A stretch of 41,230 nucleotides of DNA from the NCBI RefSeq assembly GCF_025056915.1, contig NZ_JANWVH010000016.1:1-41230 (forward strand), written 5' to 3'. This stretch comes from Meiothermus sp. GTDB taxonomy: Bacteria; Deinococcota; Deinococci; Deinococcales; Thermaceae. Positions within the stretch are counted from its first letter, which is position 1. Every line of letters begins with the position of its first letter. Below are positions 487-22,724 of the stretch, one piece after another. Below the pieces are notes generated by a model. That model ran no database searches and was not told the DNA's origin. It was given only the letters and a program-made list of their open reading frames with translations. Both the position numbers and the translations under genes were made by a program.

Positions 487-1380
487 CTACTCGGACAGCA
501 TCGCCCGCAGGGCCTCGGCAGCCGGGTTGCCGGCCTCGCTGGGGTAGATGAGCCAGAAGAGCCGCCGCAGCTCCATGCCCCGGATGCGCAAAGCCCGCAG
601 GTTGCCCACCTTCACATTGGGCCGCACCACCACGTTCGACACAATCCCCACCCCGGCCCCCTCGAGCACCAGCCGCTTGGTCACCTCGTGGTTGTCGGTG
701 TAGAAGACCGGGTTAATTTCCAGCCCGGCCTGCTCCAGGGCCGAGCCAAACACCCGGTAGGTCATGGCCCCCGGCTCCCGCACAATCAGCGGCACCTCGG
801 CCAGCCGCTCGGGGTCAATTTCCTCCTTTTTGGCCCAGGGGTGCTCCGGGGGCACAATCACCACCAGCTCGTCCTCGTAGAAGAGCTTGCGCTCGAAGCC
901 CTCGAGGTGCTCCACGGCCTCCACCACCGCCAGCTCCACCTCGCCCCGCAAAAGCCGCTGGGTCAGGTGCTCGGAGCTGCCGCTTTCCAGCTTCAGGCGA
1001 ATCTCAGGGTACAGCCGCTTGAACTCGGTCAGGTAACGGGGCAGCACGTATACCGCCATGGTGGTCGAGGCACCAATCTCCACCCGCCCGCGCTCGAGGC
1101 GCTCCAGAGCCTGCGCAGCCTGCACGAACTCTTCCAGCGCCTGCACGGCCCGCCGGGCCTCGGGCAGCAGATCCTGGCCGGTTTTGCTCAGCACCAACCG
1201 GCGGCCCTGGCGGTGGAAGAGAGGGCGGCCAATCTGGGCCTCCAACGCCCGCAGGTGCTGGCTCACGCCGGGTTGGGTAATGCCCAAGCTCAGGGCTGCG
1301 CGGCCCACGCTGCCCTCCTGTACCACGCACAAAAACACCCGCAGGGCCTGGGGGTTGGGGAAGGGGCGACGTTCAATCAT
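487..1380 (-). CDS. LysR-family transcriptional regulator
   Basis: The 297-residue product has the full LysR layout: an N-terminal winged helix-turn-helix (residues about 10-65, with AALSLGITQPGVSQHLRALE as recognition region), a linker helix, and a two-lobed LysR substrate-binding domain from about residue 90 (starting GRVEIGASTTMAVYVLPRYL). It is transcribed away from rpe-fba and has its own promoter. The ATG at 1380 is preferred. A GTG six bases upstream (1386) is in frame, but neither has a ribosome binding site. The effector is not deducible; the domain resembles the CbbR/CysL branch only in a general way. Confidence 0.9.
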   Translation of the reverse strand: MIERRPFPNPQALRVFLCVVQEGSVGRAALSLGITQPGVSQHLRALEAQIGRPLFHRQGRRLVLSKTGQDLLPEARRAVQALEEFVQAAQALERLERGRVEIGASTTMAVYVLPRYLTEFKRLYPEIRLKLESGSSEHLTQRLLRGEVELAVVEAVEHLEGFERKLFYEDELVVIVPPEHPWAKKEEIDPERLAEVPLIVREPGAMTYRVFGSALEQAGLEINPVFYTDNHEVTKRLVLEGAGVGIVSNVVVRPNVKVGNLRALRIRGMELRRLFWLIYPSEAGNPAAEALRAMLSE

Positions 1381-1419
1381 AAGCACATATTATAAAAACC
1401 ATCCGAAAGTAGCTTTCAA
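1380..1419 (-). promoter_or_regulatory. Promoter of the LysR gene, probably leaderless
   Basis: On the minus strand TTGAAA (1414-1419) and a perfect TATAAT (1389-1394) are separated by 19 bases. A start about 7-9 bases after the -10 box would fall on or next to the GTG/ATG start codons (1386/1380), which leaves no room for a Shine-Dalgarno site. Leaderless transcripts are common in Deinococcus-Thermus. The transcription start itself is inferred. Confidence 0.55.
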
Positions 1420-1525
1420 TCTATCAAACACGTATCCAGGCTTTTGCTGACGAGGTCGCGCATGATAGGGGTGTGCAAATGCTTCTGAAACGATTGTCCT
1501 CGGTCGTGGTTGTGCGAATATAAAC

Positions 1526-1544
1526 CCAAGCTTATAAGCTTTGG
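1526..1544. repeat. Palindrome in the lysR-rpe intergenic region
   Basis: AAGCTTATAAGCTT (1528-1541) is a perfect 14-base palindrome, extended on both sides by CC...GG with one mismatch. It lies about 145 bases from the LysR start and 180 from rpe, in the 343-base region between the divergent genes, so it is a candidate binding site for the LysR protein. Nothing in the sequence proves that. No other gene is seen between 1387 and 1723. Confidence 0.4.
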
Positions 1545-1723
1545 CTCTGAATATGGATTTCAGCACGCTCTGGGGCCGATAAACTGTTGAAAACTTCAGA
1601 CTCGCCTGTGGGGGAGTGGGCTGCTCAAGGGAGTCAATATCAGATTTTCTTTTAAGTCCCGCGCCATCGCGTATTATCTGGTACATATGCGTGAGCAAGC
1701 GATCCAAAAAGGAGCCCTGGCCT

Positions 1724-2398
1724 ATGCCTGAGCTGCGAGTAGCCCCCTCCATCCTGACCGCCGACTTTGCCCGCCTGGGCGAGCAGATTCGGGAGGCCGA
1801 GGCGGCGGGGGTGCACTGGATTCACCTCGACGTGATGGACGGGCGCTTTGTGCCCAACCTGACCTTTGGCCCGCTGGTGGTGGAGGCCATCCGCAAGGTC
1901 ACGCCGCTCCCCCTGGACGTTCACCTGATGATTGTGGAGCCCGAGCGCTACCTGAGGGACTTTGCCCAGGCCGGGGCGGACTGGATCACCGTGCACGCCG
2001 AGGCCACCCCGCATGCCCACCGGGCGGTGCAGCAGGTGAAGGAACTGGGCAAAAAGGCCGGACTGGCCATCAACCCCGCCACGCCGCTGGAGGCCCTGCT
2101 GCCGCTGCTGCCCGAGCTTGACCTGGCCCTCCTGATGAGCGTGAACCCTGGTTTTGGGGGGCAGAAATACATCCCGGCCAGCACCGAGCGCATCCGGCGG
2201 TTGCGGGGTTGGCGCGACCAGCTCAACCCGGGCTGCCTGATCGAGGTGGACGGAGGGATAAAGCCCGAGAACATCGCCGAGGTCTACCGGGCCGGGGCCG
2301 ACGTGGTGGTGGCCGGGAGTGCCTTATTCAACAGCCAGCCTGTTTCGGAAAATATGAAGAGACTGCTAGGAGAGGTGTATGCCGCTGGCCCTCGGTAA
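1724..2398 (+). CDS. rpe: Ribulose-phosphate 3-epimerase
   Basis: The 224-residue TIM-barrel enzyme interconverts ribulose 5-phosphate and xylulose 5-phosphate in the pentose phosphate pathway. Diagnostic blocks are [14 protein letters not shown] at the start, [17 protein letters not shown] (metal ligands His and Asp), [20 protein letters not shown], and [10 protein letters not shown] followed by AGSALF near the end (phosphate grip). Length is normal for the family. The ATG at 1724 follows AAAAAGGAG (1706-1714) by nine bases; the open frame continues upstream but with no family similarity. Its last 20 bases overlap the next gene, fba, so the two are translated together. Confidence 0.95.
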
Positions 2399-3302
2399 AG
2401 ATGTTCTGGACAAGGCCCGGCGCGAAGGCTATGCCGTGCCCAGCTTCAACACCAACAACCTGGAGATTACCCAGGCCATCCTCGAGACCGCCGAGGTACT
2501 GCGAGCGCCCGTCTTCATCCAGGTTTCGGACGGGGCCCGCAAGTACGCCGGGCTGGAAAACCTCTCCAACCTGGTGCGCGACATGGCCAGCCGGGTAAGC
2601 GTGCCGGTGGTGCTGCACCTCGACCACGGGGCCGACTACAAGATGGTGCTCCAGGCGCTGAGGGCCGGCTTTACCAGCGTGATGATTGACGCCTCACACC
2701 ACCCCTTCGAGGAAAACGTGCACGAAACCCAGAAGTGCGTGGAGGCCGCGCACGCGGTGGGGGTGAGCGTTGAGGCCGAGCTAGGCCGTTTGCAGGGTAT
2801 CGAAGACAACATTGTAGTGGACGCCAAAGATGCCTTCCTGACCGACCCCGAGGAGGCGGCCCGCTTTGTAGAGGCCACCGGCATTGACTATCTGGCCATT
2901 GCCATTGGCACCTCGCACGGGGCCTACAAGGGCAAAGGGCGGCCTTACATTGACCATGCCCGGCTCGAGCAGATCGCAGCAAAAGTCTCCATCCCCCTGG
3001 TGCTGCACGGCTCCTCGGGGGTGCCCCAGTGGCTCAAGGACAAGATGAGCGTAACCGGGGCCGACCTCGGCGACCCCACCGGCATCCACGATGAGGACGT
3101 GCGCAAAGCCATACCCAACGGCATCGCCAAGATCAACATTGACACCGACTTGCGGCTGGCCTTTACGGCGGGTATCCGCGAGGTAGTGGTGGGCAATGCC
3201 CGGGAGTTCGACCCACGCAAGCTACTGGGCAAGGGCCGCGAGTACCTCAAGCAGGTCATCAAGGAAAAGTTCGAACTGATGGGCACGGTGGGGCGGGCCT
3301 GA
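2379..3302 (+). CDS. fba: Class II fructose-1,6-bisphosphate aldolase
   Basis: The 307-residue enzyme cleaves and forms fructose 1,6-bisphosphate in glycolysis and gluconeogenesis using zinc. It carries the class II signature [10 protein letters not shown] (Asp82 catalytic, His83 zinc ligand), the HHPFEENV segment, [14 protein letters not shown] with the second zinc His, LHGSSGVP, and a [10 protein letters not shown] phosphate-binding motif. The start overlaps the end of rpe by 20 bases, and CTAGGAGAGG lies just upstream inside rpe, so coupled translation is likely. The pairing puts triose, hexose and pentose phosphate interconversion under one transcript. Confidence 0.96.
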
Positions 3303-3831: not shown

Positions 3832-4311
3832 TTGACCAAGTCTACCATTTCCCTGGTTTTCTCTTCGGCTTTGCTCTTGTTGGGCCTCGGAGCGTATTTG
3901 TTCAGCGCTCAAACCGCGGTGGCCCAGGCCAGCCCCCTCTACGCCCAGTGCCAGGGCTGCCACCAGCCCACCGGCGCAGGCGTACCGGGCGTCTTCCCCC
4001 CGCTTGCAGGCCACGTGCCTGAAATTCTGGAGGCCAAGGGGGGGCGTGAGTTCCTGATCCAGACCCTCCTGTACGGCTTGCAAGGCCAGATCACCGTGAA
4101 AGGCGCCAAGTACCAGGGGGTCATGCCGGCCTATGCCCAGCTCAAGGACGAAGACATTGCCGCCCTGCTCAACCACATCTCCACCCAGTGGGGCAACAAG
4201 TTCCCCGCCGGTCAGCAAGCCTTCACCGCTGCCGAGGTCAAGGCCCAGCGCGGTAAGAACCTGACCGCAGCCCAGGTGCTGGAAGCCCGCAACAAGCTGG
4301 GCCTCAAGTAA
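3832..4311 (+). CDS. Single-haem c-type cytochrome, exported
   Basis: The 159-residue protein has an N-terminal hydrophobic signal or anchor (residues about 5-32), one covalent haem motif CQGCH at 40-44 and a probable axial Met in GVMPAY (Met98), the usual class I cytochrome c arrangement. The C-terminal 45 residues are charged and helical. The start is a TTG at 3832, chosen because GGAGGTG sits seven bases upstream and the signal sequence begins right there. It has its own promoter and terminator. Convergent with the sox operon, it could accept electrons from sox or sulfide oxidation and pass them to the terminal oxidase; that role is inferred from position only. Confidence 0.88.
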   Translation: MTKSTISLVFSSALLLLGLGAYLFSAQTAVAQASPLYAQCQGCHQPTGAGVPGVFPPLAGHVPEILEAKGGREFLIQTLLYGLQGQITVKGAKYQGVMPAYAQLKDEDIAALLNHISTQWGNKFPAGQQAFTAAEVKAQRGKNLTAAQVLEARNKLGLK

Positions 4312-4329
4312 ACCCAGCCCCGAACCACG

Positions 4330-4355
4330 CCCGGACGATGCGTCCGGGTTTTTTT
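4330..4355 (+). terminator. Rho-independent terminator of the cytochrome c gene
   Basis: CCCGGACG-ATG-CGTCCGGG is a perfect 8-base-pair stem with a 3-base loop followed by seven T residues, 19 bases after the stop codon. Confidence 0.92.
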
Positions 4356-4524
4356 GCTTTGGGTCCCGGGCTCGAGGGGCCTGGACGGGCAGATTGGCGC
4401 TGGGTGAGGCTTCGTTCAAGGAGAAACAAGGTCAGGGAGGGGGGTGGGTCGAACCCGGCCCCCAAACCTCTGCCTCACCGCGCCTTCGGCTGGCAAAGCA
4501 CAAAGGCAAAGAGGGTACAAGCTT

Positions 4525-4558
4525 GACCCGGCACAGCCAGAGCGGTCGTGCCGGGTCT
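4525..4558. repeat. Long inverted repeat at the end of the sox operon
   Basis: GACCCGGCAC and GTGCCGGGTC pair perfectly over 10 bases with a 14-base loop. It lies 16 bases past the stop of the last sox-operon gene and may end that transcript, although no T-run follows on either strand. The remaining bases between 4356 and 4573 hold no gene I can support. Confidence 0.5.
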
Positions 4559-4573
4559 TGGTGGGCGAGGTTC

Positions 4574-4870
4574 TCAGATGACCTTTCGCAGAATCATGGC
4601 AATCTGGCCTTTGCTTAGCTCCACATTGCCCGAAGCGGCCTGGGTCTCCCAGGCATTCAGATACTCTTCCAGCACCACGCTGGCGACCGAGTCCAGGGCT
4701 TTGCGGGTGGCCTGAATCTGATCCAACAGTTCGCTGAACGAGCGGCCTTCCTCGGCCATACGCTGCAATCCCCGTACCTGACCCTCGATGCGCTTGAAAC
4801 GGCGAATGATGCCCTCCAGGGTCTCGGGGTCGGTAAAGGTGCCGTCTAGCTTGGGTTTGCCCGCGTTCAT
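4574..4870 (-). CDS. CsoR/CstR-family (DUF156) transcriptional regulator lacking all metal/thiol ligands
   Basis: The 98-residue all-helical protein begins its DUF156 domain with RRFKRIEGQVRGLQRM (residues 23-38), the family hallmark. In CsoR the Cu(I) ligands are Cys-X24-His-X3-Cys. The aligned residues here are Phe45, Tyr70 and Trp74 with exactly the same spacing, and the protein contains no cysteine or histidine, so neither copper binding nor CstR-type persulfide sensing by thiols is possible by the known chemistry. The second ATG (4870) is chosen because GGAGG (4877-4881) sits six bases before it but abuts the first ATG (4876). It is the last gene of the sox operon, 13 bases after ccdA, and likely binds the GGGTAT-type operators described at 16724 and 22683. 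Confidence 0.88.
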   Translation of the reverse strand: MNAGKPKLDGTFTDPETLEGIIRRFKRIEGQVRGLQRMAEEGRSFSELLDQIQATRKALDSVASVVLEEYLNAWETQAASGNVELSKGQIAMILRKVI

Positions 4871-4883
4871 TTGCATCCTCCGC

Positions 4884-5552
4884 TCATAGCCGCTCTTGCA
4901 GCCACTCGGGGGTGATTTTCAGGAAGAAGCTGTTGAGCTGGGTGTAGGTGCCGGTCAGCAGCAGAATGCCGACGGCAATCAGCACCAGTCCGGCGGTGAT
5001 CTCAACGGCGTGCGATAGGCGGGCCGCGCGTTTGAGAAGGGCTCGAGCCCGGTCTGCAAAAAAGGCCACCAGCAAGAACGGCACGGCCAGCCCCAGGATG
5101 TACGCCACCAGCAGATGCACCCCCCCACCGGTGGCGGTAAGGGTCAGGATTCCGCCCAGAATGGGCCCTATGCAGGGCGTCCAGCCCAGCCCCAGCACGA
5201 TGCCCAGCACGAAAGCTCCCCAGGGGCGGTCGGTGGCGCCCTCATAGCGCAAGTTCACGCCCCATTTGGGCTTGAGACCCAGCATGTAGAGCCCCAGCAG
5301 AATCAGCACCCCGCCCCCAATGCGCCCCAGCAGGTCGCGGTGCTCAAAAAGCAAACCCCCCAGCAGGGTGAAGGGCAGGCCCAGCAGAAAGAAGATGGCC
5401 GAGAAGCCCAGCACGAAAAAGACGGCGTTGCGCAGGGGACGGCCTTGCTGCCCGCCCAGGTAAAGCAAATAGGTGGGCACCAGCGGGAGCACGCAGGGCG
5501 ATAGGAAGGAGAGAATTCCTGCCAGAAAGGCGATGGGGAGGCTCAGGGTCAT
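4884..5552 (-). CDS. ccdA: CcdA-type thiol-disulfide membrane transporter
   Basis: The 222-residue, six-helix membrane protein moves reducing equivalents from cytosolic thioredoxin to periplasmic thioredoxin-like proteins. The two redox cysteines lie in the family motifs LSPCVLPLVP (helix 1, residues about 17-26) and LGWTPCIGPILGG (helix 4, about 122-134). In sox operons a CcdA/SoxV protein keeps SoxW, and through it SoxY, reduced; it also serves cytochrome c maturation. The gene is followed after 7-13 bases by the DUF156 gene and preceded by the Rieske gene with a 10-base gap. Confidence 0.93.
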   Translation of the reverse strand: MTLSLPIAFLAGILSFLSPCVLPLVPTYLLYLGGQQGRPLRNAVFFVLGFSAIFFLLGLPFTLLGGLLFEHRDLLGRIGGGVLILLGLYMLGLKPKWGVNLRYEGATDRPWGAFVLGIVLGLGWTPCIGPILGGILTLTATGGGVHLLVAYILGLAVPFLLVAFFADRARALLKRAARLSHAVEITAGLVLIAVGILLLTGTYTQLNSFFLKITPEWLQERL

Positions 5553-5562
5553 ATGGTTGGCT

Positions 5563-6288
5563 TTAGCCCAGCACCGGACAGGTGGTGGGGGCTTTGGTGT
5601 GCTCGGTATAGGGAATCACGGTGGCTTTGGCCACTTCCTCGCGGGCCCGGGCGGTGGTGCGGAACAGGTCGCGCAGGGCCTGGTTCTGGGCGCGGAAAAA
5701 GGCGTCGAACTGGGGGTTGCCCAGGAAGCCGACCGCGTAGGCCTCGTCCTTGGCGGCGTCGTATTCCAGGGCAACCGCCGCCAGAGCGTGGGGGGCCGGG
5801 CCACCCTTGACCTCCCCGCCTTTGCTCAGGTCGAAGGCCGAAAGGTGGGCGCAGCAGACCATGCGGGGGCCCCGGTTGCCCTCGGGCTTGTAGTAGCCCA
5901 TGGCCCCCAGGTTGGGCGCCGCGTAGCTGTAGGCATGGGGGCAGATGCTGGTATAGGCCACAATATTTTTGCCCTTGCCCACCCCCCCCGTCCAGCGGTA
6001 GTTCTTGCCGTCGGGCATCTTGACTTCTACCGGGGCAAGCTCGGCCTCCACATTGACCAGGATATTGGGTGTGGCCGCAAACGGATAGGCAAACACATAC
6101 GGCTCGTGGGGCTTCAGGCTGCTAAGCTTGAAGGGGTTGCCGGCCTTGTCAACCAGCAGGGCCTTTTGAAAGGTATTGACGTTGCTTTGGGCTCGAACGA
6201 ACTCGAGCATCCCCAGGGGGGATAGCTTGAGCAGCAGCCCGAGCGAGGTGCCTTTGGCCAATAAATCGAGAAAGTCACGGCGATCCAT
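5563..6288 (-). CDS. Tat-exported Rieske [2Fe-2S] protein of the sox operon
   Basis: The 241-residue protein starts MDRRDFLDLLAKG, a Tat-like twin-arginine signal with a following hydrophobic stretch. The Rieske cluster motif is C116-P-H118 ... C145-C-A-H148. A third cysteine (Cys146) sits inside the second half of the motif. The start at 6288 is set by GAGGTT upstream and the signal. An upstream in-frame extension overlaps soxD and looks unrelated. Its place directly after soxCD suggests electron transfer from the sulfane dehydrogenase SoxCD or from cytochromes; that is inference. Length is greater than the Rieske domain alone, with an N-terminal beta segment of unknown role. Confidence 0.88.
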   Translation of the reverse strand: MDRRDFLDLLAKGTSLGLLLKLSPLGMLEFVRAQSNVNTFQKALLVDKAGNPFKLSSLKPHEPYVFAYPFAATPNILVNVEAELAPVEVKMPDGKNYRWTGGVGKGKNIVAYTSICPHAYSYAAPNLGAMGYYKPEGNRGPRMVCCAHLSAFDLSKGGEVKGGPAPHALAAVALEYDAAKDEAYAVGFLGNPQFDAFFRAQNQALRDLFRTTARAREEVAKATVIPYTEHTKAPTTCPVLG

Positions 6289-6295
6289 GCGAACC

Positions 6296-6859
6296 TCAGG
6301 GGAGCTTAATCCAGGGGAAGCGCTTCTGGGTGCTGGGGTCAAGTTCCAGCAGCGCTCGAGCGGGCATCTGCACCTTGGGCAGGGTCTGGGCGTTCATGGG
6401 CTCGTTGCCGTCAATCACGCCGTTTTGGTAGAGGATATAGGCCACCACCGCATAGACCTCGTCGTTGCTGAGGATGCCCGGGGTGGCGAAGGGCATGGCC
6501 CGGCGGGTGTAGTCGAAGAGGGTGGTGGCGTAGGGCCAGTAGTTCCCGATGGCGAAGTCCACCGAGTCGGTGTCTTTGGTGATGGGGAAGGGCTCGGAGA
6601 CCAGCCGGGTAAAGGCCCCACCCTCGCCGGTGGAGCCGTGGCAGCCGGCGCAGTGGACGGCGTAGACCTTGGCGCCCTCGTCCACGGTGCCCTGGCCGGG
6701 GGGCAGGCCCACCCCATTGGCCAGGATGGAGGGCCGGATGTTCCACTCCTGAACCTCTTTTTCGTTGAGGGGGGTGCCGATCTGGTAGCGCCCCTGGGCC
6801 AGCACCAGGGCCGAGAGGGCCAGGGCCGAAAGGGCCAGGTAAAACCACTTGCGCCGCAT
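6296..6859 (-). CDS. soxD: SoxD-type cytochrome c, partner of SoxC
   Basis: The 187-residue protein has a signal peptide (residues 1-22), haem motif C70-AGC-H74, and the SoxD-like blocks GVGLPPGQGTVDEGAKVY and NYWPYATTLFDYTRRAMPF, the latter containing the probable axial Met. The extra second haem domain of Paracoccus SoxD is absent; single-haem SoxD proteins are known. The start codon overlaps the soxC stop as ATGA. With SoxC it should form the periplasmic sulfane dehydrogenase that oxidises SoxY-bound sulfane sulfur and passes electrons to a small cytochrome. Confidence 0.92.
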   Translation of the reverse strand: MRRKWFYLALSALALSALVLAQGRYQIGTPLNEKEVQEWNIRPSILANGVGLPPGQGTVDEGAKVYAVHCAGCHGSTGEGGAFTRLVSEPFPITKDTDSVDFAIGNYWPYATTLFDYTRRAMPFATPGILSNDEVYAVVAYILYQNGVIDGNEPMNAQTLPKVQMPARALLELDPSTQKRFPWIKLP

Positions 6860-8154
6860 CAGGACTCACCTCCACAGCCGCCCCGCCCCACCGCGCCGAG
6901 CCGCTCGGGCGCTCCGGCCAGGGTTTTGTCGCCGTTGACCACCTTGCCGTCGGCCCCAATCCGCCAGGCCTGGATGGCGTTGTAGTGGTAGCGGTTGTTG
7001 CGGGCCCATTTGGCAAAAAACTCCTCCTGGGTGGGCTGGGTGTTGCCCTTTTCGTCCCAGGCCCGGCTCATGATGACCGTTTCCTTGCCGTCCCAGACCC
7101 AGTTGTACTTGAAGCGCACCACCGAGAGGGCGTCGGGGGCGGGCTCGAGGTTGGCCCGTTTCCAGGTCTTGCCGCCATCCAGCGAAATTTCCACCCGGCG
7201 AATGCGTCCGTGCCCGCTCCAGGCCAGGCCCCGAATCTCGTGGAAGCCCCGCTGAATCTGTTGCAAGCCCGAGGGGTAGGTGATGATGGACTCGGGGTCC
7301 ATCACCCAGGTAAAGGCATGAATCTTGCCGTCGGCCATCACGTCGGTGTACTCCGAGGTTTCGTCCTTGCTCATCACCGGCGTATCGGTCACCTGGATGC
7401 GCCGCAGCCATTTGACCTGGATGCTGCCCTCCCAGCCCGGCACCACCAGCCGCACCGGGTAGCCCTGCTCGGGCCGGATGGCCTCGCCGTTCTGGGCGTA
7501 GGCCACCAGCACGTCGTCCAGGGCCTTCTCCAGCGGCAGGCTGCGGGTGTAGGCGGCGGCGTCCTGGCCTTCGGGAATCAGCCAGCGGGCGCCTTCTTTG
7601 AGGCCGGCTTCCTTGAGCAGGATGGAGAGCGGCACCCCCGTCCAGGAGGAGTTCGAGACCAGGCCCCGGCTGCGGGTGGCAGTCAGGGTCATGTCGGGGG
7701 GGTTGCGGTAGCCGTTCTGCCCGTTGCCCGCGCACTCGATGAAGTAGGTGCGGGTGACCGAGGGAAAGCGCTTGAGGTCTTGCAGGGTGAACATCAGGGG
7801 CCGCTCGACCATGCCGTGAATGACCAGCCGGTAGTCGGCGGGGTTGACGTTGGGCACCCCGCCGTGGTGCCGCTCGAAGTGCAGCGAGCTGGGGGTGATG
7901 ATGCCCTCGAGCTTCTCCAACGGGCTGAAGTCGGCCCCGGTGTGGCGGCTGCGCAGGTTGGGGGAGATGTAGCGAATCACGTCCTTCTCGAACTCGCTGC
8001 GTTCGCCGTACTCGCGCAGGGTGGCCCCCAGCACCTTCATGGTCTCGGTTGCACCCTGCGGAATCTTGCCCTGGGCCAGCCCCGGCGAGAGCTTCACAAA
8101 AGCCCCGGCAGCCACACCCTTGCTCAATAACTGGAGGAGTTTTCTGCGATTCAT
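6859..8154 (-). CDS. soxC: SoxC, molybdopterin sulfane (sulfite-oxidase family) dehydrogenase
   Basis: The 431-residue protein carries a Tat signal (MNRRKLLQLLSKG), the sulfite-oxidase-fold molybdopterin domain with Mo-ligand Cys141 in FIECAGNGQNGYR, and the C-terminal dimerisation domain (WSGHGRIRRVEISLDGGKTW). It oxidises sulfur bound to SoxY with SoxD as electron acceptor. The extreme C-terminus reads GAVGRGGCGGES, which contains the exact GGCGG motif that in SoxY forms the swinging sulfur-carrier arm; see findings. The soxD gene follows with a 1-base stop/start overlap. Confidence 0.94.
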   Translation of the reverse strand: MNRRKLLQLLSKGVAAGAFVKLSPGLAQGKIPQGATETMKVLGATLREYGERSEFEKDVIRYISPNLRSRHTGADFSPLEKLEGIITPSSLHFERHHGGVPNVNPADYRLVIHGMVERPLMFTLQDLKRFPSVTRTYFIECAGNGQNGYRNPPDMTLTATRSRGLVSNSSWTGVPLSILLKEAGLKEGARWLIPEGQDAAAYTRSLPLEKALDDVLVAYAQNGEAIRPEQGYPVRLVVPGWEGSIQVKWLRRIQVTDTPVMSKDETSEYTDVMADGKIHAFTWVMDPESIITYPSGLQQIQRGFHEIRGLAWSGHGRIRRVEISLDGGKTWKRANLEPAPDALSVVRFKYNWVWDGKETVIMSRAWDEKGNTQPTQEEFFAKWARNNRYHYNAIQAWRIGADGKVVNGDKTLAGAPERLGAVGRGGCGGES

Positions 8155-8210: not shown

Positions 8211-9491
8211 TTAGGTTTCAGGCCCGAACATATCGCCCCACAGGCCCCGGGCCCACTCGAGGGCCAGCCCCCCATTCTGCTTGGAACGCTGGTTGTCTAC
8301 CGTGGACTGCTGCCGCACCTGCCGGGCCGCAGCGTCCCAGTTGTGCTTGTGCGAGACCCAGATGGACTCCTCGGAGTTCACAAAGCTGTAGCAGATGTTG
8401 TCGGGAAGCGGGTTGGGAATCTCGGCCAGCTTTTTGCCGGCGATGCGCTGGGCGATATGCTCGGCCACGATCTTGCCGTCGTTGTAGGCCACCTGGCCGC
8501 TCTTGGGGTAGGGCACGTTGCCCATCACGTCGCCAATCACATAAACCCGGTCGTCGCGCTCGGAGAGGAAGGTGGGGAGCTGCACGTTGGCCCAGCGGTC
8601 GCCCAAGCCCGCGGTGCGCACAATCTCGCCGGCCTTCATGGGCGGGATGATGTTGGCCAGGTCGAACTGGAACTCGCCCAGGCTGGTCTTGACGGTTTTC
8701 TTGGCGTAGTCAATGGCGGTGACTTCGGCCTGGGGGATGTACTGGATGTAGTCCTTGTAGAGGTCGTTGAAGGCCGCCGTGAAGCCGGGGGCCTTGGAGA
8801 TGGGGCCGGGGTTGGCATCCAGCACGATGACCTTGCCCTTGATCTGGTTGGTCTTGAGGTAGTAGGCCAGCATGGCCGCCCGCTCGTAGGGGCCGGGCGG
8901 GCAGCGGTAGGGCGGGCGGGGAATGGCCAGCACCAGGTCGCCGCCCTCGAAGTTGTCGAGCTGGCGCTTGAGGGCGATGTGCTCGAAGGGCTTGAAGCCC
9001 ACCGGCAGGAACTGCTTGACCTCGCTGTAGCCCTGGATGGCCTCGTACATGTAGTCAATGCCCGGCGAGACCACCAGGTAGTTGTAGAAGATGATGCCGC
9101 TGGTGGTGCGCACGTAGCGCCCGGCCCGGTTGACCTCGATGGCCCGCTCGTTGACGAAGGTGACCCCAGCCTTGACCACGTTGGTGTAGTCGAACACCAG
9201 GAAGTCCAGGTCCTTCACCCCGCCCAGGTAGAGGTTGCTCATGGGGCAGGACATAAAGGCCGGGTTCTTCTCGATGAGCACCACCTCGATGTTGGGGTTT
9301 TTGCGGCGCAGGTGGCGGGCGGTGCTGATGCCGCCCCAGCCCCCACCGATAATCACCACCCGGTTGCCCCGGGCAGGCCCCAGCACGCTCGAGGGCCGCG
9401 AAAAAAACTCCTGGGCGAAGCCGCTGCTGGCCGCCGCAGCGCCTACGGCGGCGCTGGCTTTTAGAAACTTGCGACGTGAGACTTTCTTCAT
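8211..9491 (-). CDS. Flavocytochrome c sulfide dehydrogenase flavoprotein (SoxF/FccB-like)
   Basis: The 426-residue protein has a Tat signal (MKKVSRRKFLKAS), a dinucleotide-binding GGGWGG at 49-54, an FCSD-type redox cysteine pair (one in FMSCPMSNLYLGG, one in YRCPPGPYERAAM), an RVYVIGDV second FAD motif and the C-terminal FCSD-flavin-binding region. It would oxidise sulfide to sulfur or polysulfide in the periplasm. The usual diheme cytochrome subunit (SoxE/FccA) is not beside it, so another cytochrome must take the electrons. The ATG at 9491 is set by AAGGGAGG; a TTG 15 bases upstream is less likely. Confidence 0.9.
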   Translation of the reverse strand: MKKVSRRKFLKASAAVGAAAASSGFAQEFFSRPSSVLGPARGNRVVIIGGGWGGISTARHLRRKNPNIEVVLIEKNPAFMSCPMSNLYLGGVKDLDFLVFDYTNVVKAGVTFVNERAIEVNRAGRYVRTTSGIIFYNYLVVSPGIDYMYEAIQGYSEVKQFLPVGFKPFEHIALKRQLDNFEGGDLVLAIPRPPYRCPPGPYERAAMLAYYLKTNQIKGKVIVLDANPGPISKAPGFTAAFNDLYKDYIQYIPQAEVTAIDYAKKTVKTSLGEFQFDLANIIPPMKAGEIVRTAGLGDRWANVQLPTFLSERDDRVYVIGDVMGNVPYPKSGQVAYNDGKIVAEHIAQRIAGKKLAEIPNPLPDNICYSFVNSEESIWVSHKHNWDAAARQVRQQSTVDNQRSKQNGGLALEWARGLWGDMFGPET

Positions 9492-9503
9492 GTGGCCTCC
9501 CTT

Positions 9504-9552
9504 CAAAGCCCAAGCGGTTTTGGGGTTACGAAAAGCGTTGGCTTGGGTTTTG
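9504..9552. repeat. Inverted repeat in the leader of the FCSD gene
   Basis: CAAAGCCCAAGC (9504-9515) and GCTTGGGTTTTG (9541-9552) pair over 12 bases with one mismatch and a 25-base loop. The stem ends just upstream of the GGGAGG ribosome binding site of the FCSD gene, inside a 115-base gap of the sox operon. It could tune translation, stabilise a processed mRNA end, or partly terminate; there is no T-run. Confidence 0.4.
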
Positions 9553-10919: not shown

Positions 10920-11717
10920 CTAGCGGGTGAAGCCCGGCAGCTCGGTGAACTTGTTCTTGCCCTTGGTGGCTTCGGCCAGCATATAGATGGAAAGGGCAAT
11001 GTAGGGTTCAGAGTAGAACTCCGGGGGGTGGATGCCCACCGATTCGTAGCAGAAGGCGATGCGGTCTTGCAGGGTGTAGAGCTTATCGGCCTCGAAGCGA
11101 TAGGCGGGCCACTCGTTGGAAAGGCCCTGGCGGGGGCTGCGCACCGGGGAGAGCCGCACCTTGCCCCCGGCATAGCTGTCGTGGCAGATGGCGCAGTTCA
11201 TGTCGCGGTCACCGGCCCGGTGGTACCAGAGTTCCCGGCCCAGGTTGTACATGGCAATCTCCTGGGAGGTTTTGGGCACCACGTTGATGGGCATCTCGGT
11301 GGACTTGGAGGCCACGTAGGCGGTCAGGGCCTTCACATCGTCGCGTTTGATGTCCTGGGGGCGGAAGCCCTGGAGGTTCACCATGCAGCTTACGATGCGG
11401 GTCTCGAGGTCTTCCACCCGCCGGGTGTCGGCAAAGTAGCGCGGAAGCTGGGTCAGGGCGCCCTCCAGCTTCCCCGGCCCCAGGCCAAAGTCACAGGCCT
11501 CGAGGCTCACGTTTTTAGGCCCCCGCTTCTGGGCGAACAGCTCCTCCCCCTGGGCGGCGTAAAGCTCGCCGGGCAGAATGCCGGCGGTCTGGCGGAACAG
11601 CTCCCGCTGCCGCTCGGCTTCCTTGTAGGGGTCTACCTCCTGCTGCTGGGTGAGGGCAATACCGAGGCCCAACCCCAGCGCCAGCAAAAATCCAATCCAC
11701 AGGCTGCGGTCGCGCAT
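10920..11717 (-). CDS. soxA: SoxA, second copy (SoxA2)
   Basis: The 265-residue monohaem-type SoxA has an N-terminal signal/anchor (7-23), a haem-less N-terminal half in which Cys75 (SLEACDFG) and Cys111 (SCMVNLQGF) likely form a disulfide, haem motif C175-AIC-H179, and the thiol/persulfide haem ligand Cys223 in RIAFCYESVG. With SoxX it joins thiosulfate to the SoxY cysteine. Closely similar to the copy at 14656, but with a longer loop after the haem and a different C-terminus. It pairs with soxX2, whose stop lies four bases upstream. Confidence 0.92.
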   Translation of the reverse strand: MRDRSLWIGFLLALGLGLGIALTQQQEVDPYKEAERQRELFRQTAGILPGELYAAQGEELFAQKRGPKNVSLEACDFGLGPGKLEGALTQLPRYFADTRRVEDLETRIVSCMVNLQGFRPQDIKRDDVKALTAYVASKSTEMPINVVPKTSQEIAMYNLGRELWYHRAGDRDMNCAICHDSYAGGKVRLSPVRSPRQGLSNEWPAYRFEADKLYTLQDRIAFCYESVGIHPPEFYSEPYIALSIYMLAEATKGKNKFTELPGFTR

Positions 11718-11721
11718 GGCA

Positions 11722-12285
11722 TCACCTCTTGGCGTTGACCGGCGAGGCCGGGTCGAGCAGGAAAGCGGTCACGTGGGCGGTCTCTTCGGGGGTGAGGATG
11801 CCGTGGTGGCCTGCCCGGTACATCAGCGAGCAGGGCATGGTGGCCCAGGCGTTGTAAATCTTGTCGTAGGTGTACTTGACCACCGCCTCGCTGGTGCCAC
11901 GAGCCCCGTAGCCCACCAGGCCCGGCCCCATCCGCCCGGCCCCGGCCTCCTTGGGGTCGCCGGTGTGGCAGGCGTAGCAGTTGCCTTTGCGGGGGTTGGT
12001 AAACAGGGCCTCGCCCTGCTTCCAGTCGCCCATCAGCTTGCCATTGGCAGGGTATTTGATCAGGGCCCGCTGGCGTTCGAGGAAGGCCCCCACTTGCTCA
12101 GGGGGGAGTTTGTCGCGGTACTGCGAGCAGAGCGCCTGGTCGGGGTCTTGCTTCATGGTTTGAGCAAACTTGCTGCCCCCGCTATTGATGGCCTGCTGAA
12201 CCCGCTGCTGGAAGGGCCCCTGCTGGGACAGGGTGAACCCCGCCAACAGCGTGGCCAGTATTCCAACCCAATATCTTTTTTTCAC
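11722..12285 (-). CDS. soxX: SoxX, second copy (SoxX2)
   Basis: The 187-residue cytochrome c has a signal peptide (1-20), a helical N-terminal extension with Cys53, haem motif C103-YAC-H107 and CSLMYRAGHHG with the probable axial Met. It forms the electron-accepting subunit of SoxAX. The start is a GTG at 12285, preceded by GGAGG at suitable distance. The residues after the axial Met (YRAGHHG) differ from copy 1 (YRFGHGG), which could shift the haem potential. Confidence 0.9.
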   Translation of the reverse strand: MKKRYWVGILATLLAGFTLSQQGPFQQRVQQAINSGGSKFAQTMKQDPDQALCSQYRDKLPPEQVGAFLERQRALIKYPANGKLMGDWKQGEALFTNPRKGNCYACHTGDPKEAGAGRMGPGLVGYGARGTSEAVVKYTYDKIYNAWATMPCSLMYRAGHHGILTPEETAHVTAFLLDPASPVNAKR

Positions 12286-12303: not shown

Positions 12304-14010
12304 CTATCCGGGTAGCACATAGCGTTGATCCAGTACCCGCATGCTGGGGCGCGGGGGAATGTTCACGGTCTTGACCTGCTTCAGATACTCGGCAATCAGG
12401 TCGTAGATGGGCCGGGGGGTGTATTTTTCCACCAGAGTGCCGCTGCGCTGCAAGCGCCCGCCAAACGAGGCCAGGGTGTACTCGCGGTTGGGGTCGAGGC
12501 GGCGGCCCCGGATGGCCACATTGCGGATGCGCTGGCCGGTGGGGGCGTTGACGGCCAGGTCGTAGGAGAGCCCGAAGACCCGGCTCATATCCCCACCCTG
12601 CTGGTAGAAGGGGTCGGGGTTGAAGGTGTTGGCGGCCACGTCCTCGAGCACCGCCTGCAAGCGGTCGCCCTTGAGCCGGAACACATACACTTCGGGGTAG
12701 GTGTAGCCGGTATAGGCCAGCACCTTGTCCATGGTGATGGGCTGGCCGGGCAGGATGGCCGTACCCCAGCGGGTGCCGGTGCTGAAGGCCACTTCCACCT
12801 CGGGGTAGGCGGCCTGCACTGCCCGGCAGGCCAGCTCGTCGAGGGTGGAGTAGGTGGAGTCGCGCTTGTACAGCAGGGTTTCGGCGGTGCCGAGCACCTG
12901 ATCCAGATACGCCAGGTGCGGGGCGTAGGCCTCGCGGATGAAAGCTTCCAGGGCCGGGTCGGGCTTGATCAGGCTAGTCGCTACGGGCAGGGTGCGGGCC
13001 CGCAGGTCGGCAATGCCGCCTTTTTTCATCTGCAAGTCCACCCGCACTACGGCCTTGCCCGACGAGCCTCCGGCCACCAGCCAGGTATTGCCCACCCGAA
13101 TGGGGGCCGGGGTGAAGTCGTGGGTGTGGCCGGTGAGAATCAGGTCAATTCCCTGGATGCGGGCCGCCAGGGCCAGGTCCAGCGGCACGCCGTTGTGCGA
13201 GAGCATCACCACCGCGTCCACGCCCTTGCCCCTCAGTTCGTCCACATATTTTTGTAGCTCGTTTTCCCGCACCCCAAAGGAAAGCCCCTCGGAGAACTCC
13301 TCCGGGTGGGAAACCTTTACATAAGGGAAGGTGGAGCCGATAATGCCCAGGCTGTAGCCCCCAATCTGGTGGATGGCATAGGGCGGGTAGATGGGGTCGC
13401 CAAAGAGGTCGTCCACGATGTTGAAGCTGATGACCTGGGCTTTGAGCTGCTTGACCAATTCCTCTACGCGTTCGCGGCCCAGGGTGTACTCCCAGTGGAA
13501 GACCATGTGGTCGAAACCCACCCGGTTCATCCAGTCCACCACCACCTGCCCCCTGGTGCGCAGCGAGATGCCGGAGTTGGTCCAGGTGTCGCCGCCATCC
13601 AGCACCAGGGTGCGGTTTTCGCCTGCCTGGGCTTTTTGCTGCTTGATAAGAGCGCCGATATAAGCCCCACCCCCCATCGGCCCAAACCGCTGGGCCAGGG
13701 CCGCAAAATCTACCGAGGAGAAGGCGTAGGCCTCGAGGCTACCCCGCCGCAGGCCGTAGTAACGCAGAAAAGCCTCGCCGGTCAGGTAGCCGGGCTTGCC
13801 CTCCAGGGCCCTGGCCGCCAGCAGGTTGGGCGGTTCCATGAAGTAGTGGGGCCTTAGCTGAGCGTGCAGGTCGGTGTTGAAGAGCAGGGTCACGTTGCCG
13901 AAGGGCGGCAGGTCGTACAGCCGCTCGGGCCGTTCCATGGCCTGGGCAAAGGCCTTGGGGGAGGTCATGCCCAGGGCCAGCAGAAGTTGTACCAGTTCAC
14001 GTCGGGTCAT
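12304..14010 (-). CDS. soxB: SoxB, sulfate-releasing sulfohydrolase
   Basis: The 568-residue periplasmic enzyme hydrolyses sulfate from SoxY-S-sulfonate. It has an RR-type signal (MTRRELVQLLLALG), a metallophosphoesterase domain with dimanganese ligands in NTDLHAQLRP (Asp47, His49), LDGGDTW, FHWEYTLG, SHNGVPLD and GHTHD, and a 5'-nucleotidase C-terminal domain (STLDELACRAVQ ... FNPDPFYQQGGDMSRV). The ATG at 14010 is preferred over the GTG at 14013 that almost abuts GGAGG. It is flanked on both sides by soxX and soxA in mirror order. Confidence 0.95.
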   Translation of the reverse strand: MTRRELVQLLLALGMTSPKAFAQAMERPERLYDLPPFGNVTLLFNTDLHAQLRPHYFMEPPNLLAARALEGKPGYLTGEAFLRYYGLRRGSLEAYAFSSVDFAALAQRFGPMGGGAYIGALIKQQKAQAGENRTLVLDGGDTWTNSGISLRTRGQVVVDWMNRVGFDHMVFHWEYTLGRERVEELVKQLKAQVISFNIVDDLFGDPIYPPYAIHQIGGYSLGIIGSTFPYVKVSHPEEFSEGLSFGVRENELQKYVDELRGKGVDAVVMLSHNGVPLDLALAARIQGIDLILTGHTHDFTPAPIRVGNTWLVAGGSSGKAVVRVDLQMKKGGIADLRARTLPVATSLIKPDPALEAFIREAYAPHLAYLDQVLGTAETLLYKRDSTYSTLDELACRAVQAAYPEVEVAFSTGTRWGTAILPGQPITMDKVLAYTGYTYPEVYVFRLKGDRLQAVLEDVAANTFNPDPFYQQGGDMSRVFGLSYDLAVNAPTGQRIRNVAIRGRRLDPNREYTLASFGGRLQRSGTLVEKYTPRPIYDLIAEYLKQVKTVNIPPRPSMRVLDQRYVLPG

Positions 14011-14067
14011 CACACCTCCAATCCCAGGCTCGGGTGCCTGCCAGGGAACGCGATGAACTCCAAAGAT

Positions 14068-14646
14068 TTAGCGCTTCAGAGCCGGCTTGGTGTTGAAGTC
14101 CGAGGCGGGGTCAAGCAGGTAGGCCACCACGTGGGCAATCTCCTCCGGCTTGAGCAGGCCGCCGTGCCCGAAACGGTACATCACCGTGCAGGGAAAGTAG
14201 GCCCAGGTGTTGTAGATCACCTCGTAGGTGTATTTCTGCATGGCTTCCGAGGTGCCCCGCTGGCCGTACTTTTCCAGGCTGGGTCCCACGTTTCCTCCAA
14301 TGTTGAGGGGGGAGCCCACATGGCAGGAGAAGCAGTTGCCGCGGGCCAGGGTGTTGAAGATGGGTTCGCCCTGCTTCCAGTCCCCCATCAGCTTGCCGTC
14401 GGCGGGGTACTTGATGCTCTTGCGCTGCTCTTCGATGAAGGGGCCGAGCACCTCGGCGGGTAGCTTGTTGCGGTGAATGGAGCAAAGCGCCTGGTCGGGG
14501 GCCTGGCGGAGCAGGGTATTGGCGTAGCTCTGGCCTCCGGCCTGGATCAGCCGCTGGAGCTCGGCGTTGATGTAGGATTGACCGGTTTGACCACTGGCCA
14601 GGCCCAAAAGCATGAGCAGCAAGGTCGGTAGATAGAGTCGCCGCAC
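14068..14646 (-). CDS. soxX: SoxX, first copy (SoxX1)
   Basis: The 192-residue cytochrome c has a signal peptide (1-19), haem motif C105-FSC-H109 and FPCTVMYRFGHGG with the axial Met. It shares long blocks with SoxX2 (QAPDQALCS, KYPADGKLMGDWKQGE, RGTSEAMQKYTYEVIYN), so the two arose by duplication. The start is a GTG at 14646 five bases after GGAGGTGTT. It lies directly after soxA1. Confidence 0.92.
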   Translation of the reverse strand: MRRLYLPTLLLMLLGLASGQTGQSYINAELQRLIQAGGQSYANTLLRQAPDQALCSIHRNKLPAEVLGPFIEEQRKSIKYPADGKLMGDWKQGEPIFNTLARGNCFSCHVGSPLNIGGNVGPSLEKYGQRGTSEAMQKYTYEVIYNTWAYFPCTVMYRFGHGGLLKPEEIAHVVAYLLDPASDFNTKPALKR

Positions 14647-14655
14647 AACACCTCC

Positions 14656-15447
14656 CTAGCGAATGAAACCGGGCAGGTCCATCCGCGCCCCTCGAGCCTG
14701 GGTGTTCATGAACAGCGTCAGGGCGATGATGGGTTCGGAGTAGAGGTCAGGGGCGGGCATGCCCAGGTTGGCGTAGCAAGCCCGGATGCGGTCGGCCATG
14801 GTCCAGGCCTGGTCGTTGGAGTAGCGGAAGGCCGGCCAGTGGCTGGCCGCACGCTTATCTTTGAGGATGTCGGAGTAGGGGAGAACCCCTGCCCGCTTGC
14901 CCACATAGGTCACGTGGCAGGTCGCGCAACCCATATCCCGCGGGCCAGCCCGCAGGTAGAAAAGCTGCTCCCCCAGCTCATAGAGCTTTTTCTCCTGGGG
15001 CATCAGGGGGCGCACCGTGACCGGCTGCTCGTTGGACAGCGAGGCCAGGTAAAAGGCAATGGCCACCACCTCGCTGCGCCGGATTTCCTGGGGCTGGAAG
15101 CCCTGGAGCCGAACCATGCAGGTGCGGATGCGCGAGTCGAGGTCTTCTACCTTGCGGGTGTCGAAGAAGTAGCGGGGCAGCCGCCCGACCACCCCCTCCA
15201 GCTTCCCCGGCCCCCGGCCAAAGTCGCAGGCCTCGAGGGAGGCGTTCTTGGGGCCGCGCTTGGTCTTGAACAGTTGCTCTCCCTGGGCCACAAAAAGGTC
15301 GCTGGGCAGAACGCCCCCGCTTTGCTCTAAGAGCTGCTTCTTTTGCTTCTCTGCCTCTTTGACCGGATCCTCCTCTTCCTGGGCCAGCGCCAACAGGCTG
15401 AAGAGGGCCAGAACTGCCGCCCCTACCAAACGCCAGAAGCGACCCAT
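14656..15447 (-). CDS. soxA: SoxA, first copy (SoxA1)
   Basis: The 263-residue protein has a signal peptide (1-22), a haem-less N-terminal half with Cys74 and Cys110, one haem motif C174-ATC-H178 and the active thiol ligand Cys224 in RIRACYANLG. It catalyses oxidative conjugation of thiosulfate to SoxY with SoxX1. It is preceded by soxZ by nine bases. Its similarity to SoxA2 is strong in RGPKNASLEACDFG and GKLEG-RLPRYF. Confidence 0.93.
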   Translation of the reverse strand: MGRFWRLVGAAVLALFSLLALAQEEEDPVKEAEKQKKQLLEQSGGVLPSDLFVAQGEQLFKTKRGPKNASLEACDFGRGPGKLEGVVGRLPRYFFDTRKVEDLDSRIRTCMVRLQGFQPQEIRRSEVVAIAFYLASLSNEQPVTVRPLMPQEKKLYELGEQLFYLRAGPRDMGCATCHVTYVGKRAGVLPYSDILKDKRAASHWPAFRYSNDQAWTMADRIRACYANLGMPAPDLYSEPIIALTLFMNTQARGARMDLPGFIR

Positions 15448-15456
15448 CCGAACCCC

Positions 15457-15783
15457 CTAGGCCAGGGTGAGGTCTGCGGTTCTCTCGCCGGTTTGGCCTG
15501 TAAGATCCTTGCAGGTCACCTTGATCTGCCCCGCCTTGCTGGCCTTCATCTTGAAGGCGAAGAGCGGGTTGGCGCTGGTGCCGGGGCCAGGCTTGACCTG
15601 GGCAATGAGCTGGTTGTCCATCAGGACGTTGAGCTCGGTGATGTGATCGGCGGGAATCACCTTGCCGCTGGCATCCCGACGGGTGCCGGGCTCCATGGGG
15701 TGCTGGGCGACGATCTGCACACGCACTTCCTCACCGGCTTTGGGTTTGGCCGGGGTAAAACGAACCAGAATGTTAATGGGCAT
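15457..15783 (-). CDS. soxZ: SoxZ, sulfur-carrier scaffold subunit
   Basis: The 108-residue immunoglobulin-like protein lacks a signal peptide, as usual for SoxZ, which is exported with SoxY by Tat. Family blocks: ILVRFTPAKPKAGEEVRVQI, HPMEPGTRRDASGKVIPADHI, and FAFKMKASKAGQIKVTCKDLTG. It binds SoxY and guides it between the Sox enzymes. Start ATG 15783, eleven bases after soxY. Confidence 0.94.
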   Translation of the reverse strand: MPINILVRFTPAKPKAGEEVRVQIVAQHPMEPGTRRDASGKVIPADHITELNVLMDNQLIAQVKPGPGTSANPLFAFKMKASKAGQIKVTCKDLTGQTGERTADLTLA

Positions 15784-15794
15784 GACACACCTCC

Positions 15795-16256
15795 TTAACC
15801 GCAGCCACCCACGGTGACGCGCACCGACTGCGAAGCCATCAGGAACTTGCCGTCTTTGGTCTCGACAATGGCCCGAACGGGGGCGGTTTCAGCAACCCGC
15901 ACGCGGGTGGCATAGTAGGGCAGCACCCCGTTGAGAATCACCGTGAAGAGCAGCGGGTTGGCGTTTTTGTCGCTGAAGCAGTGAATGGCCTTGACCTGCT
16001 CGGCGGGCAGGCTGGCCTCAATCTCGACCGGCACATTGGCGCCCGACTCGGCGATGGTGGGCGCGGTCAGCTTAACCTGCTGCGAGACGGTCATGTCCTT
16101 GAAACCCTTGCCCAGCACCTGCTGCAAGCCCTTCTCCAGGTTGGCCAGGTCTTCGCCCTCGAGGGCCCCCTGAGCCAGCCCCGAGGTGAGCTGGGAAGCC
16201 AGCACCGCACCGGCCACGGCCCCTGCCGAGGCTTTCAAAAACTTTCTTCTATCCAC
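15795..16256 (-). CDS. soxY: SoxY, sulfur-carrier subunit
   Basis: The 153-residue protein starts with a Tat signal (VDRRKFLKASAGAVAG, cleavage near residue 30) and ends VTVGGCG. The C-terminal Gly-Gly-Cys arm is where thiosulfate is attached; the last glycine of the classical GGCGG is missing. The start is a GTG at 16256, chosen because GGAGGTG (16263-16269) sits six bases before it; upstream in-frame ATG at 16280 lies before that site. The gene overlaps the soxW end by 8 bases, so translation is coupled. Confidence 0.93.
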   Translation of the reverse strand: MDRRKFLKASAGAVAGAVLASQLTSGLAQGALEGEDLANLEKGLQQVLGKGFKDMTVSQQVKLTAPTIAESGANVPVEIEASLPAEQVKAIHCFSDKNANPLLFTVILNGVLPYYATRVRVAETAPVRAIVETKDGKFLMASQSVRVTVGGCG

Positions 16257-16686
16257 AACCTTCACCTCCTGCTTTCGCACAGATTTGCTGAAGCTCTTTC
16301 AGAAACTGCGCTCGGGTACGGCTGCCAAACAGCCGCCCCACTTCTTTCCACGTACCCCCCTGGGGTACGAAGAAAACCATACTGGGGGTGCCAAAAGCTC
16401 GCAACTGGGCACTGAGGGCGCGGCCCTCGGGGCTCTGGCTGTCCACGCTGGCCACCACAAAGCGACGCTCGAGGGCTCTCGAGACCGCCGCATCGGAAAA
16501 GACATGGGTGTTCATCTGGTCGCAGTATGGGCAGGTCTCACCCCAAAAATAGACCATCAGGATGCGCCCATACGACTGGGCATACTGGCTGGCCTGGGCA
16601 TAGGGATACCACCGGTCAAAATCCACCCCCTGGGCGTTGACCGTCATCAAGCTCGAGACCAGAGTTAGGAAGAACATGCGAACCAT
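16249..16686 (-). CDS. SoxW-like exported thioredoxin
   Basis: The 145-residue protein has a signal peptide (1-19) and a thioredoxin fold with active site C52-PY-C55 in FWGETCPYCDQM and the cis-Pro loop GTPSMVFF. It is the first gene of the sox operon and should reduce SoxY or other Sox cysteines with electrons from CcdA. The last residues are KAGGEGCG, which resemble a SoxY-type Gly/Cys arm, but the GGA-GGT-GAA codons also form the soxY ribosome binding site, so this tail could be a by-product of the overlap. Confidence 0.88.
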   Translation of the reverse strand: MVRMFFLTLVSSLMTVNAQGVDFDRWYPYAQASQYAQSYGRILMVYFWGETCPYCDQMNTHVFSDAAVSRALERRFVVASVDSQSPEGRALSAQLRAFGTPSMVFFVPQGGTWKEVGRLFGSRTRAQFLKELQQICAKAGGEGCG

Positions 16687-16718: not shown

Positions 16719-16747
16719 TTTATACTACCCTGGGGTATTCAAGTCAA
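16719..16747 (-). promoter_or_regulatory. Promoter and operator of the sox operon
   Basis: On the minus strand TTGACT (-35, 16742-16747) and TATAAA (-10, 16719-16724) are separated by exactly 17 bases. The spacer holds the palindrome TACCC-TG-GGGTA (16726-16737; larger GAATACCCCAGGGTAGTAT), the same class as the CstR/CsoR-type operators. A repressor bound there would block RNA polymerase. The bases from 16748 to 17066 toward tlpA hold no gene or strong hairpin that I can support. Confidence 0.8.
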
Positions 16748-22658: not shown

Positions 22659-22679
22659 CTGCAAACCTCCAGAGGGCAG

Positions 22680-22724
22680 CATATATCCCCAGGGGGTATT
22701 TTGTCAAATACCCCCCCTGGATAT
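22680..22724 (-). promoter_or_regulatory. Promoter with two GGGTAT-type operators before the CstB-like gene
   Basis: On the minus strand TTGACA (22702-22707) and TATATG (22680-22685) are separated by 16 bases. The spacer holds ATACCCCCTGGGGATAT (22683-22699) and a second palindromic site ATATCCAGGGGGGGTAT (22708-22724) lies just upstream of the -35. Both have ATAYCC...GGGTAT half-sites with a C/G-rich core, like CstR and CsoR operators. The two sites are 25 bases apart. Confidence 0.78.

Follow-up and report, generated by a model that had tools for sequence, protein, structure and literature searches.

A conserved DUF156 protein without cysteine is encoded behind the sox genes of Meiothermus

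Repressors of the DUF156 family detect metals or reactive sulfur by way of cysteines, and were described in a previous study as having an invariant sensor cysteine (PMC5016687). We show herein that Meiothermus carries a naturally conserved member of this family without any cysteine, and that its gene lies behind the sulfur-oxidation (sox) genes, whose counterparts in Thermus obey a two-cysteine relative, TTHA1953 (PMC10318464). The protein may be a thiol-blind paralogue of a Sox repressor that exerts feedback at the sox promoter, either alone or mixed with a protein of the C-F-C class (classes are named here after the residues at the three sensor sites); we favor this reading tentatively, giving it slightly less than even weight. 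The DNA analyzed, herein called the window, is a stretch of 41,230 nucleotides from Meiothermus sp. (contig NZ_JANWVH010000016.1).

The gene occupies positions 4574-4870 on the minus strand, and its translation yields a 98-residue protein followed by a stop codon. An alternative in-frame ATG at 4876, six bases upstream, would lengthen the protein by two residues. The 98-residue protein matches PF02583 (DUF156 / Trns_repr_metal) with 64.3 bits, against a Pfam curated cut-off of 22.8, and contains the DUF156 hallmark RRFKRIEGQVRG, as an earlier, sequence-only reading of this DNA had stated. F45, Y70 and W74 (codons at 4736-4738, 4661-4663 and 4649-4651, minus strand) align with the sensor triad at spacings of 25 and 4, and the protein has neither Cys nor His; the translation, together with the Pfam match, confirmed this part of the sequence-only reading as well. 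Site 1 (F45) is Cys in most relatives, Y70 is site 2, and site 3 (W74) is Cys in the C-F-C and C-Y-C paralogues. In a predicted model (mean pLDDT 80.7; 96-98 across residues 21-60), helices are placed at residues 15-40, 45-79 and 87-95, consistent with the three-helix fold of the family, and F45 would thus begin helix 2. The start of helix 2 is where the conserved Cys of the family resides, a residue called invariant in PMC5016687. That site is occupied by Phe in ten of the 11 orthologues (triad F-Y-W) and by Leu in the other one (L-Y-W), with Y70 and W74 invariant in all 11. The window's protein, reading F-Y-W, has neither the C-H-C nor the C-H-H ligands of the copper sensor CsoR. Nor does it have the two Cys residues, 29 residues apart, of the CstR / TTHA1953 type; both are replaced in 11 of 11 orthologues, and both are kept in 27 of 27 C-F-C proteins compared.

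The protein search covered 50 genomes of the family to which the organism belongs, 18 of the window's genus (Meiothermus) and 32 others, and orthologues were found in 11 of the former and in none of the latter. When 111 genomes of the phylum were searched with a profile, the same 11 came up (E 2.4e-52 or better), the next best match being at 2.3e-25. The orthologue-bearing records include M. hypogaeus, M. taiwanensis, M. sp. KatS3mg071 and M. rufus. The ten other orthologues are 71-89% identical to the window's protein, and the open reading frame is intact in all 11. The median dN/dS of 0.105 (maximum 0.23; 55 pairs among the 11 orthologues) and the invariance of 55 of the 98 columns indicate purifying selection on the gene. 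Two objections that the sequence-only reading had raised against itself, a sequencing error in the triad codons and a conserved Cys elsewhere, are thereby removed: the former is rejected because 11 genomes agree, and the Cys count is zero in all 11 orthologues (that of His being zero in six and one in five). The idea of a mobile gene was not supported, given the fixed position, the occurrence in 11 of 111 phylum genomes and the gap in E-value from 2.4e-52 to 2.3e-25. All 271 matching plasmid records show less than 60% identity. Two distant relatives were seen when viral contigs were scanned.

A decayed, frameshifted copy of the gene is located directly after ccdA in genome G008 (L097, 9439-9627). 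It carries Phe at site 1, and the other frame, past the frameshift, gives Tyr and Cys, which suggests that site 1 was the first to change in the passage to F-Y-W. The gene is absent from G011, G014 and G020. In G020 (L101, 1-6300), the sox row ends without ccdA and without the DUF156 gene, while the DNA on its flank, with genes for cytochrome c, aldolase and epimerase, corresponds to that of the window. The gene is dispensable in some species.

Four further DUF156 genes are present in the same genome, one reading C-H-H, one C-F-C and two C-Y-C. All four keep the site-1 Cys, which upholds the earlier supposition that sensing paralogues exist in this genome. Of 115 DUF156 frames that were read, all but 21 have Cys at site 1, the exceptions being 15 F-Y-W rows and one L-Y-W row (several of which repeat one genome), one decayed row and four divergent rows. 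The four divergent rows form another non-canonical group, in which site 1 is Pro or His (P-A-C, H-G-Y, P-G-C): L109, 1504-1920 and 3432-3803 (G019), L108 (G012) and L111 (G007). In G019, genes for HMA, cupredoxin, Rieske and BTAD proteins are found close to the two copies. The "invariant" site-1 Cys fails in this group too.

With the triad columns removed, C-F-C is the class nearest to the window's protein (median identity 46%, versus 34% for C-Y-C and 24% for C-H-x). In a tree of 100 of the 115 rows, from which same-genome repeats and identical rows were taken out, the clade of the window's protein groups with C-F-C at 96/85. The same grouping was obtained at 99/96 in an 89-row tree, for which the three triad columns were removed, identical rows were merged, and rows that were long, divergent or cut were set aside (L045, both L109, L108, L111, L135, L042, L044, L096, the decayed L097 and L110). 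AU tests, which have little power here, reject neither a grouping with C-Y-C (p 0.55) nor one with C-H-x (p 0.47). Since the nearest paralogues are C-F-C, and C-F-C matches TTHA1953, the path is likely to have led from C-F-C to F-Y-W; the C-H-C triad from which the sequence-only reading had started is probably wrong. In genus g4, taken to be Thermus, Cys occupies positions 39 and 68 of the C-F-C proteins, and to judge from these positions the proteins appear to be orthologues of TTHA1953. A C-F-C protein is also found in all 11 genomes with the window's gene, and within the Meiothermus C-F-C class 17 of 18 members read C-F-C, with G006 reading C-F-F. Apart from this C-F-F orthologue, G006 (L135, L096) has a sox promoter without a recognizable element, and its SoxB groups with those of G001 and G002, which belong to another genus.

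Lys or Arg occupies 13 positions in all 11 orthologues. Eleven of these (23, 24, 26, 27, 33, 37, 43, 56, 57, 95 and 96) are likewise Lys or Arg in 27 of 27 C-F-C proteins, seven others having been left out of the comparison; position 87 is Pro in the 27, and position 5 falls outside the rows as cut. Conserved positions that differ between the F-Y-W and C-F-C classes include 39, 48, 50, 52, 62, 65 and 66.

The sox row is read on the minus strand. Its first gene encodes a thioredoxin-like protein in the soxW position (16249-16686), and is followed by soxZ and soxY (15457-16280), a first pair of soxX and soxA (14068-15447), soxB (12304-14013), a second pair of soxA and soxX (10920-12285), a gene resembling that for the flavoprotein of flavocytochrome c sulfide dehydrogenase (8211-9506), soxC (6859-8154; TIGR04555, 565.6 bits), a cytochrome c gene that is soxD by its position after soxC (6296-6859), a Rieske-type iron-sulfur protein gene (5563-6342) and a ccdA-like gene (DsbD_TM; 4884-5552). 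The DUF156 gene is the last in the row. It comes directly after ccdA, behind the sox genes, in 11 of the 11 genomes carrying it, and its placement behind sulfur-oxidation genes in the sequence-only reading is borne out by this gene order. In some Meiothermus genomes a gene of 418 residues lies between the Rieske gene and ccdA (at 14548-15804 in L048); it is absent from the window. A LysR-type gene (487-1386) and genes for ribulose-phosphate epimerase and class II aldolase (1616-3302) are found beside the sox row, and this part of the window (487-3302) is possibly a Calvin-cycle neighborhood.

No sigma-70-like promoter match was found in 4300-6400, and terminator-like matches in that interval numbered four, versus 2.1 in shuffles. 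A stem-loop just after the gene (4525-4557, minus strand; z -2.0; 8 of 200 shuffles did as well; no clear run of T) is a possible transcript end. Because there is no internal promoter match and a stem-loop follows the stop codon, the DUF156 gene is probably the last gene of a single sox transcript. In T. thermophilus, a terminator is predicted after soxD, with ccdA beyond it, and ccdA was unchanged (1.15-fold) upon deletion of TTHA1953 (PMC10318464). In view of that Thermus terminator and the unchanged ccdA, ccdA and the DUF156 gene need not share a transcript with sox.

The sox promoter contains a candidate operator, ATACCCCAGGGTAGTAT (16722-16738, minus strand), with the core TACC-N4-GGTA, inside the 17-base spacer between TTGACT (16747-16742) and TATAAA (16724-16719). 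Genome-wide, ATACCNNNNGGTANTAT has one exact match, which is the sox promoter, and one single-mismatch match elsewhere; its reversed control has one match within one mismatch. If a single mismatch is allowed in its right half, TACC-N4-GGTA is present in all 11 Meiothermus genomes with the gene (nine exact, two GGCA), and the core is present in none of the four scored Meiothermus genomes without it (G008, G011, G014 and G020). The right half of the element has decayed in these four, none of which has an intact gene, and the C-F-C protein is kept. The Fisher p of 0.0007 for this co-occurrence is overstated, as the zero of four amounts to about two losses (a clade of three, and G020), and an independent-pairs test has one or two pairs and no significance. 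The table behind it comprises 15 of the 18 Meiothermus genomes and leaves out G006 (no recognizable site), G012 (no soxY found) and G019 (assembly gap). In G019, the element is present and the sox genes stop at the contig end. A one-mismatch form of the element is found in G001 and G002, two genomes outside the genus that lack the gene, and a form with two mismatches in G004. Since G001 and G002 have the element without the gene, it is older, and it may be a site of the C-F-C protein. Moreover, it is one mismatch from a loose CstR-type pattern, so a C-Y-C protein could bind it as well.

A second palindrome, ATACCCCCTGGGGATAT (22683-22699, minus strand), is a candidate CstR-type operator. It precedes a gene for a fusion of a metallo-beta-lactamase fold with a rhodanese (21216-22682, minus strand), which we take to be CstB-like. 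Three exact copies of ATACCCCCTGGGGATAT are found in the genome: that at 22683, one ahead of a gene for a thioredoxin-reductase-like protein, and one in the divergent promoter that a rhodanese-like gene shares with a C-Y-C paralogue's operon. This pattern is as expected of a CstR regulon, and by position the 22683 site would belong to the C-Y-C paralogue, not to the cysteine-free protein. CstR-type sites (with at most one mismatch) were found in seven of seven genomes checked (G006, G008, G011, G012, G014, G019 and G020, all of them without an established intact copy of the gene), with none for the reversed control. The sequence-only reading had offered the palindromes at 16724 and 22683 as sites of the cysteine-free protein. 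Both promoters do contain DUF156-like palindromes, but the two are related yet different variants, and only that at 16722-16738 tracks the gene; the 22683 site is unlikely to be bound by this protein, given the copy adjacent to the C-Y-C paralogue and the sites in genomes without the gene. Overall, the sequence-only interpretation held for a DUF156 protein without sensor ligands behind a sox cluster, but not for a C-H-C origin or for both palindromes as its sites.

According to the reading that we favor, a duplicate of a TTHA1953-type Sox repressor lost both sensor cysteines. DNA binding should persist, since the protein retains the DUF156 fold along with the basic residues in helices 1 and 2. 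Neither a disulfide nor a metal site could be formed, and release as in the relatives would not occur; with the cysteines lost and the protein conserved, the usual means of switching off such a repressor may not work on it. As the last product of the sox row, the protein would be made when sox is induced, provided that the row is a single transcript, and might then return to TACC-N4-GGTA between the -35 and -10 boxes of the sox promoter, where it could bind alone or as mixed tetramers with the C-F-C protein. Induction would be limited by a negative feedback that neither redox changes nor persulfide relieves. The constitutive subunit mixing with a sensing paralogue, proposed in the sequence-only reading, comes close to this. 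Several observations speak against the favored reading: the small number of independent losses of the gene, the element in G001 and G002, its nearness to the loose CstR-type pattern, the Thermus terminator with the unchanged ccdA, the low power of the AU tests, the chance-level match to the TTHA1953 consensus in the window, the indifference of TTHA1953 to NaHS in vitro, and the dispensability of the gene in some species. The prediction is that binding at 16722-16738 is irreversible by oxidants, persulfide or copper. The protein provides a naturally occurring case in which to examine what a CsoR-type repressor retains once sensing is removed, and how duplicates of repressors may become feedback parts.

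Alternatively, the F-Y-W triad might constitute a new sensor, in which an aromatic pocket replaces the thiol or metal site, binds a non-metal, non-thiol ligand of a new class, and releases DNA; examples of such a ligand would be a quinone or some other hydrophobic compound produced in sulfur respiration. The constancy of Y70 and W74 in all 11 orthologues, with F45 being Phe in ten and Leu in one, exceeds what mere loss of Cys would call for, and the gene sits among electron-transfer genes. However, Phe and Leu seem interchangeable as hydrophobic fillers of site 1, the paralogues already have Phe or Tyr in the middle position, and conserved aromatics may simply pack the protein. We regard a new sensor of this kind, and a quinone-like ligand for it, as rather unlikely. 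If true, the pocket would represent a second sox input beside the redox-sensing C-F-C repressor.

It is also conceivable, if improbable, that the protein has no site of its own and acts only through its C-F-C paralogue, which it would desensitize or poison in mixed tetramers. The C-F-C protein is available in all 11 gene-bearing genomes (17 of 18 members in the genus being C-F-C and one C-F-F), the two classes share about 46% identity, and members of the family assemble into tetramers (PMC5016687). On the contrary, many conserved positions, such as those listed above, differ between the two classes, and the loss of the gene with decay of the element suggests a DNA contact of its own.

A further and still more doubtful possibility is that the sox element serves only the C-F-C or C-Y-C protein, with the cysteine-free protein binding elsewhere or doing something else. 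The single-mismatch elements of G001 and G002, which lack the gene, and the proximity of the element to the loose CstR-type pattern would agree with this, yet the four scored genomes without the gene keep the C-F-C protein and have nonetheless lost the right half. That the gene is a relic on its way out, with no present function, is very hard to accept in view of a dN/dS of 0.105 and 11 open frames out of 11, even with a frameshifted copy in G008 and its absence from G011, G014 and G020.

Among known systems, CstR, a persulfide sensor, shares the DUF156 family and the sulfur setting, and the genes behind the 22683 site resemble the cst operon. CstR acts via two cysteines, whereas the window's protein has none; a CstR role in this genome would fit the C-Y-C paralogue beside the CstR-type site. 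TTHA1719, with C-H-H ligands, is of the same fold family and differs in its metal ligands, which are absent from the window's protein (median identity to C-H-x members, as above, 24%). It is the CsoR of T. thermophilus, a Cu sensor (PMC10318464). FrmR has the same fold family too, but depends on Cys35, called conserved across all DUF156 proteins in PMC5016687, and this position is Phe in the window's protein. Among the papers listed in searches of the open-access literature, none described a cysteine-less or hetero-oligomeric DUF156 member, and the TTHA1953 paper alone came close.

That paper (PMC10318464) describes TTHA1953 of T. thermophilus HB8 as a DUF156 repressor of sox genes, the DNA binding of which is lowered by non-reducing conditions, Cu(II) or H2O2, with no effect of NaHS in vitro. 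The TTHA1953 consensus, TACNNTACNNNNGTANNGTA, has no match in the window at two or fewer mismatches. One 3-mismatch match lies in the window away from the sox promoter, no more than expected by chance, and 22 strand hits were found genome-wide, versus 32 for the reversed control (at most two mismatches). L048 and L050 each have one 3-mismatch match near the soxW-like gene. In L107 (305-324), from a genome taken as Thermus, a 2-mismatch match overlaps the start codon of the soxW-like gene, whereas the Meiothermus element lies between -35 and -10.

TTHA1953 and the Meiothermus protein share the DUF156 family, the tie to sox and the nearest sequence class (C-F-C), and the target gene types of TTHA1953 are the same as here: soxW, Y and Z, thiosulfotransferases, SoxXA, B, the flavoprotein, C and D, with ccdA next. 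They differ in that TTHA1953 has C39 and C68, is encoded far from sox and binds TACNNTACNNNNGTANNGTA, whereas the Meiothermus protein has no Cys and is encoded behind sox genes with TACC-N4-GGTA in their promoter. The C39A/C68A variant of TTHA1953 bound DNA about equally under non-reducing conditions or with Cu(II) (PMC10318464), and as such can be regarded as the laboratory counterpart of the natural cysteine-free protein.
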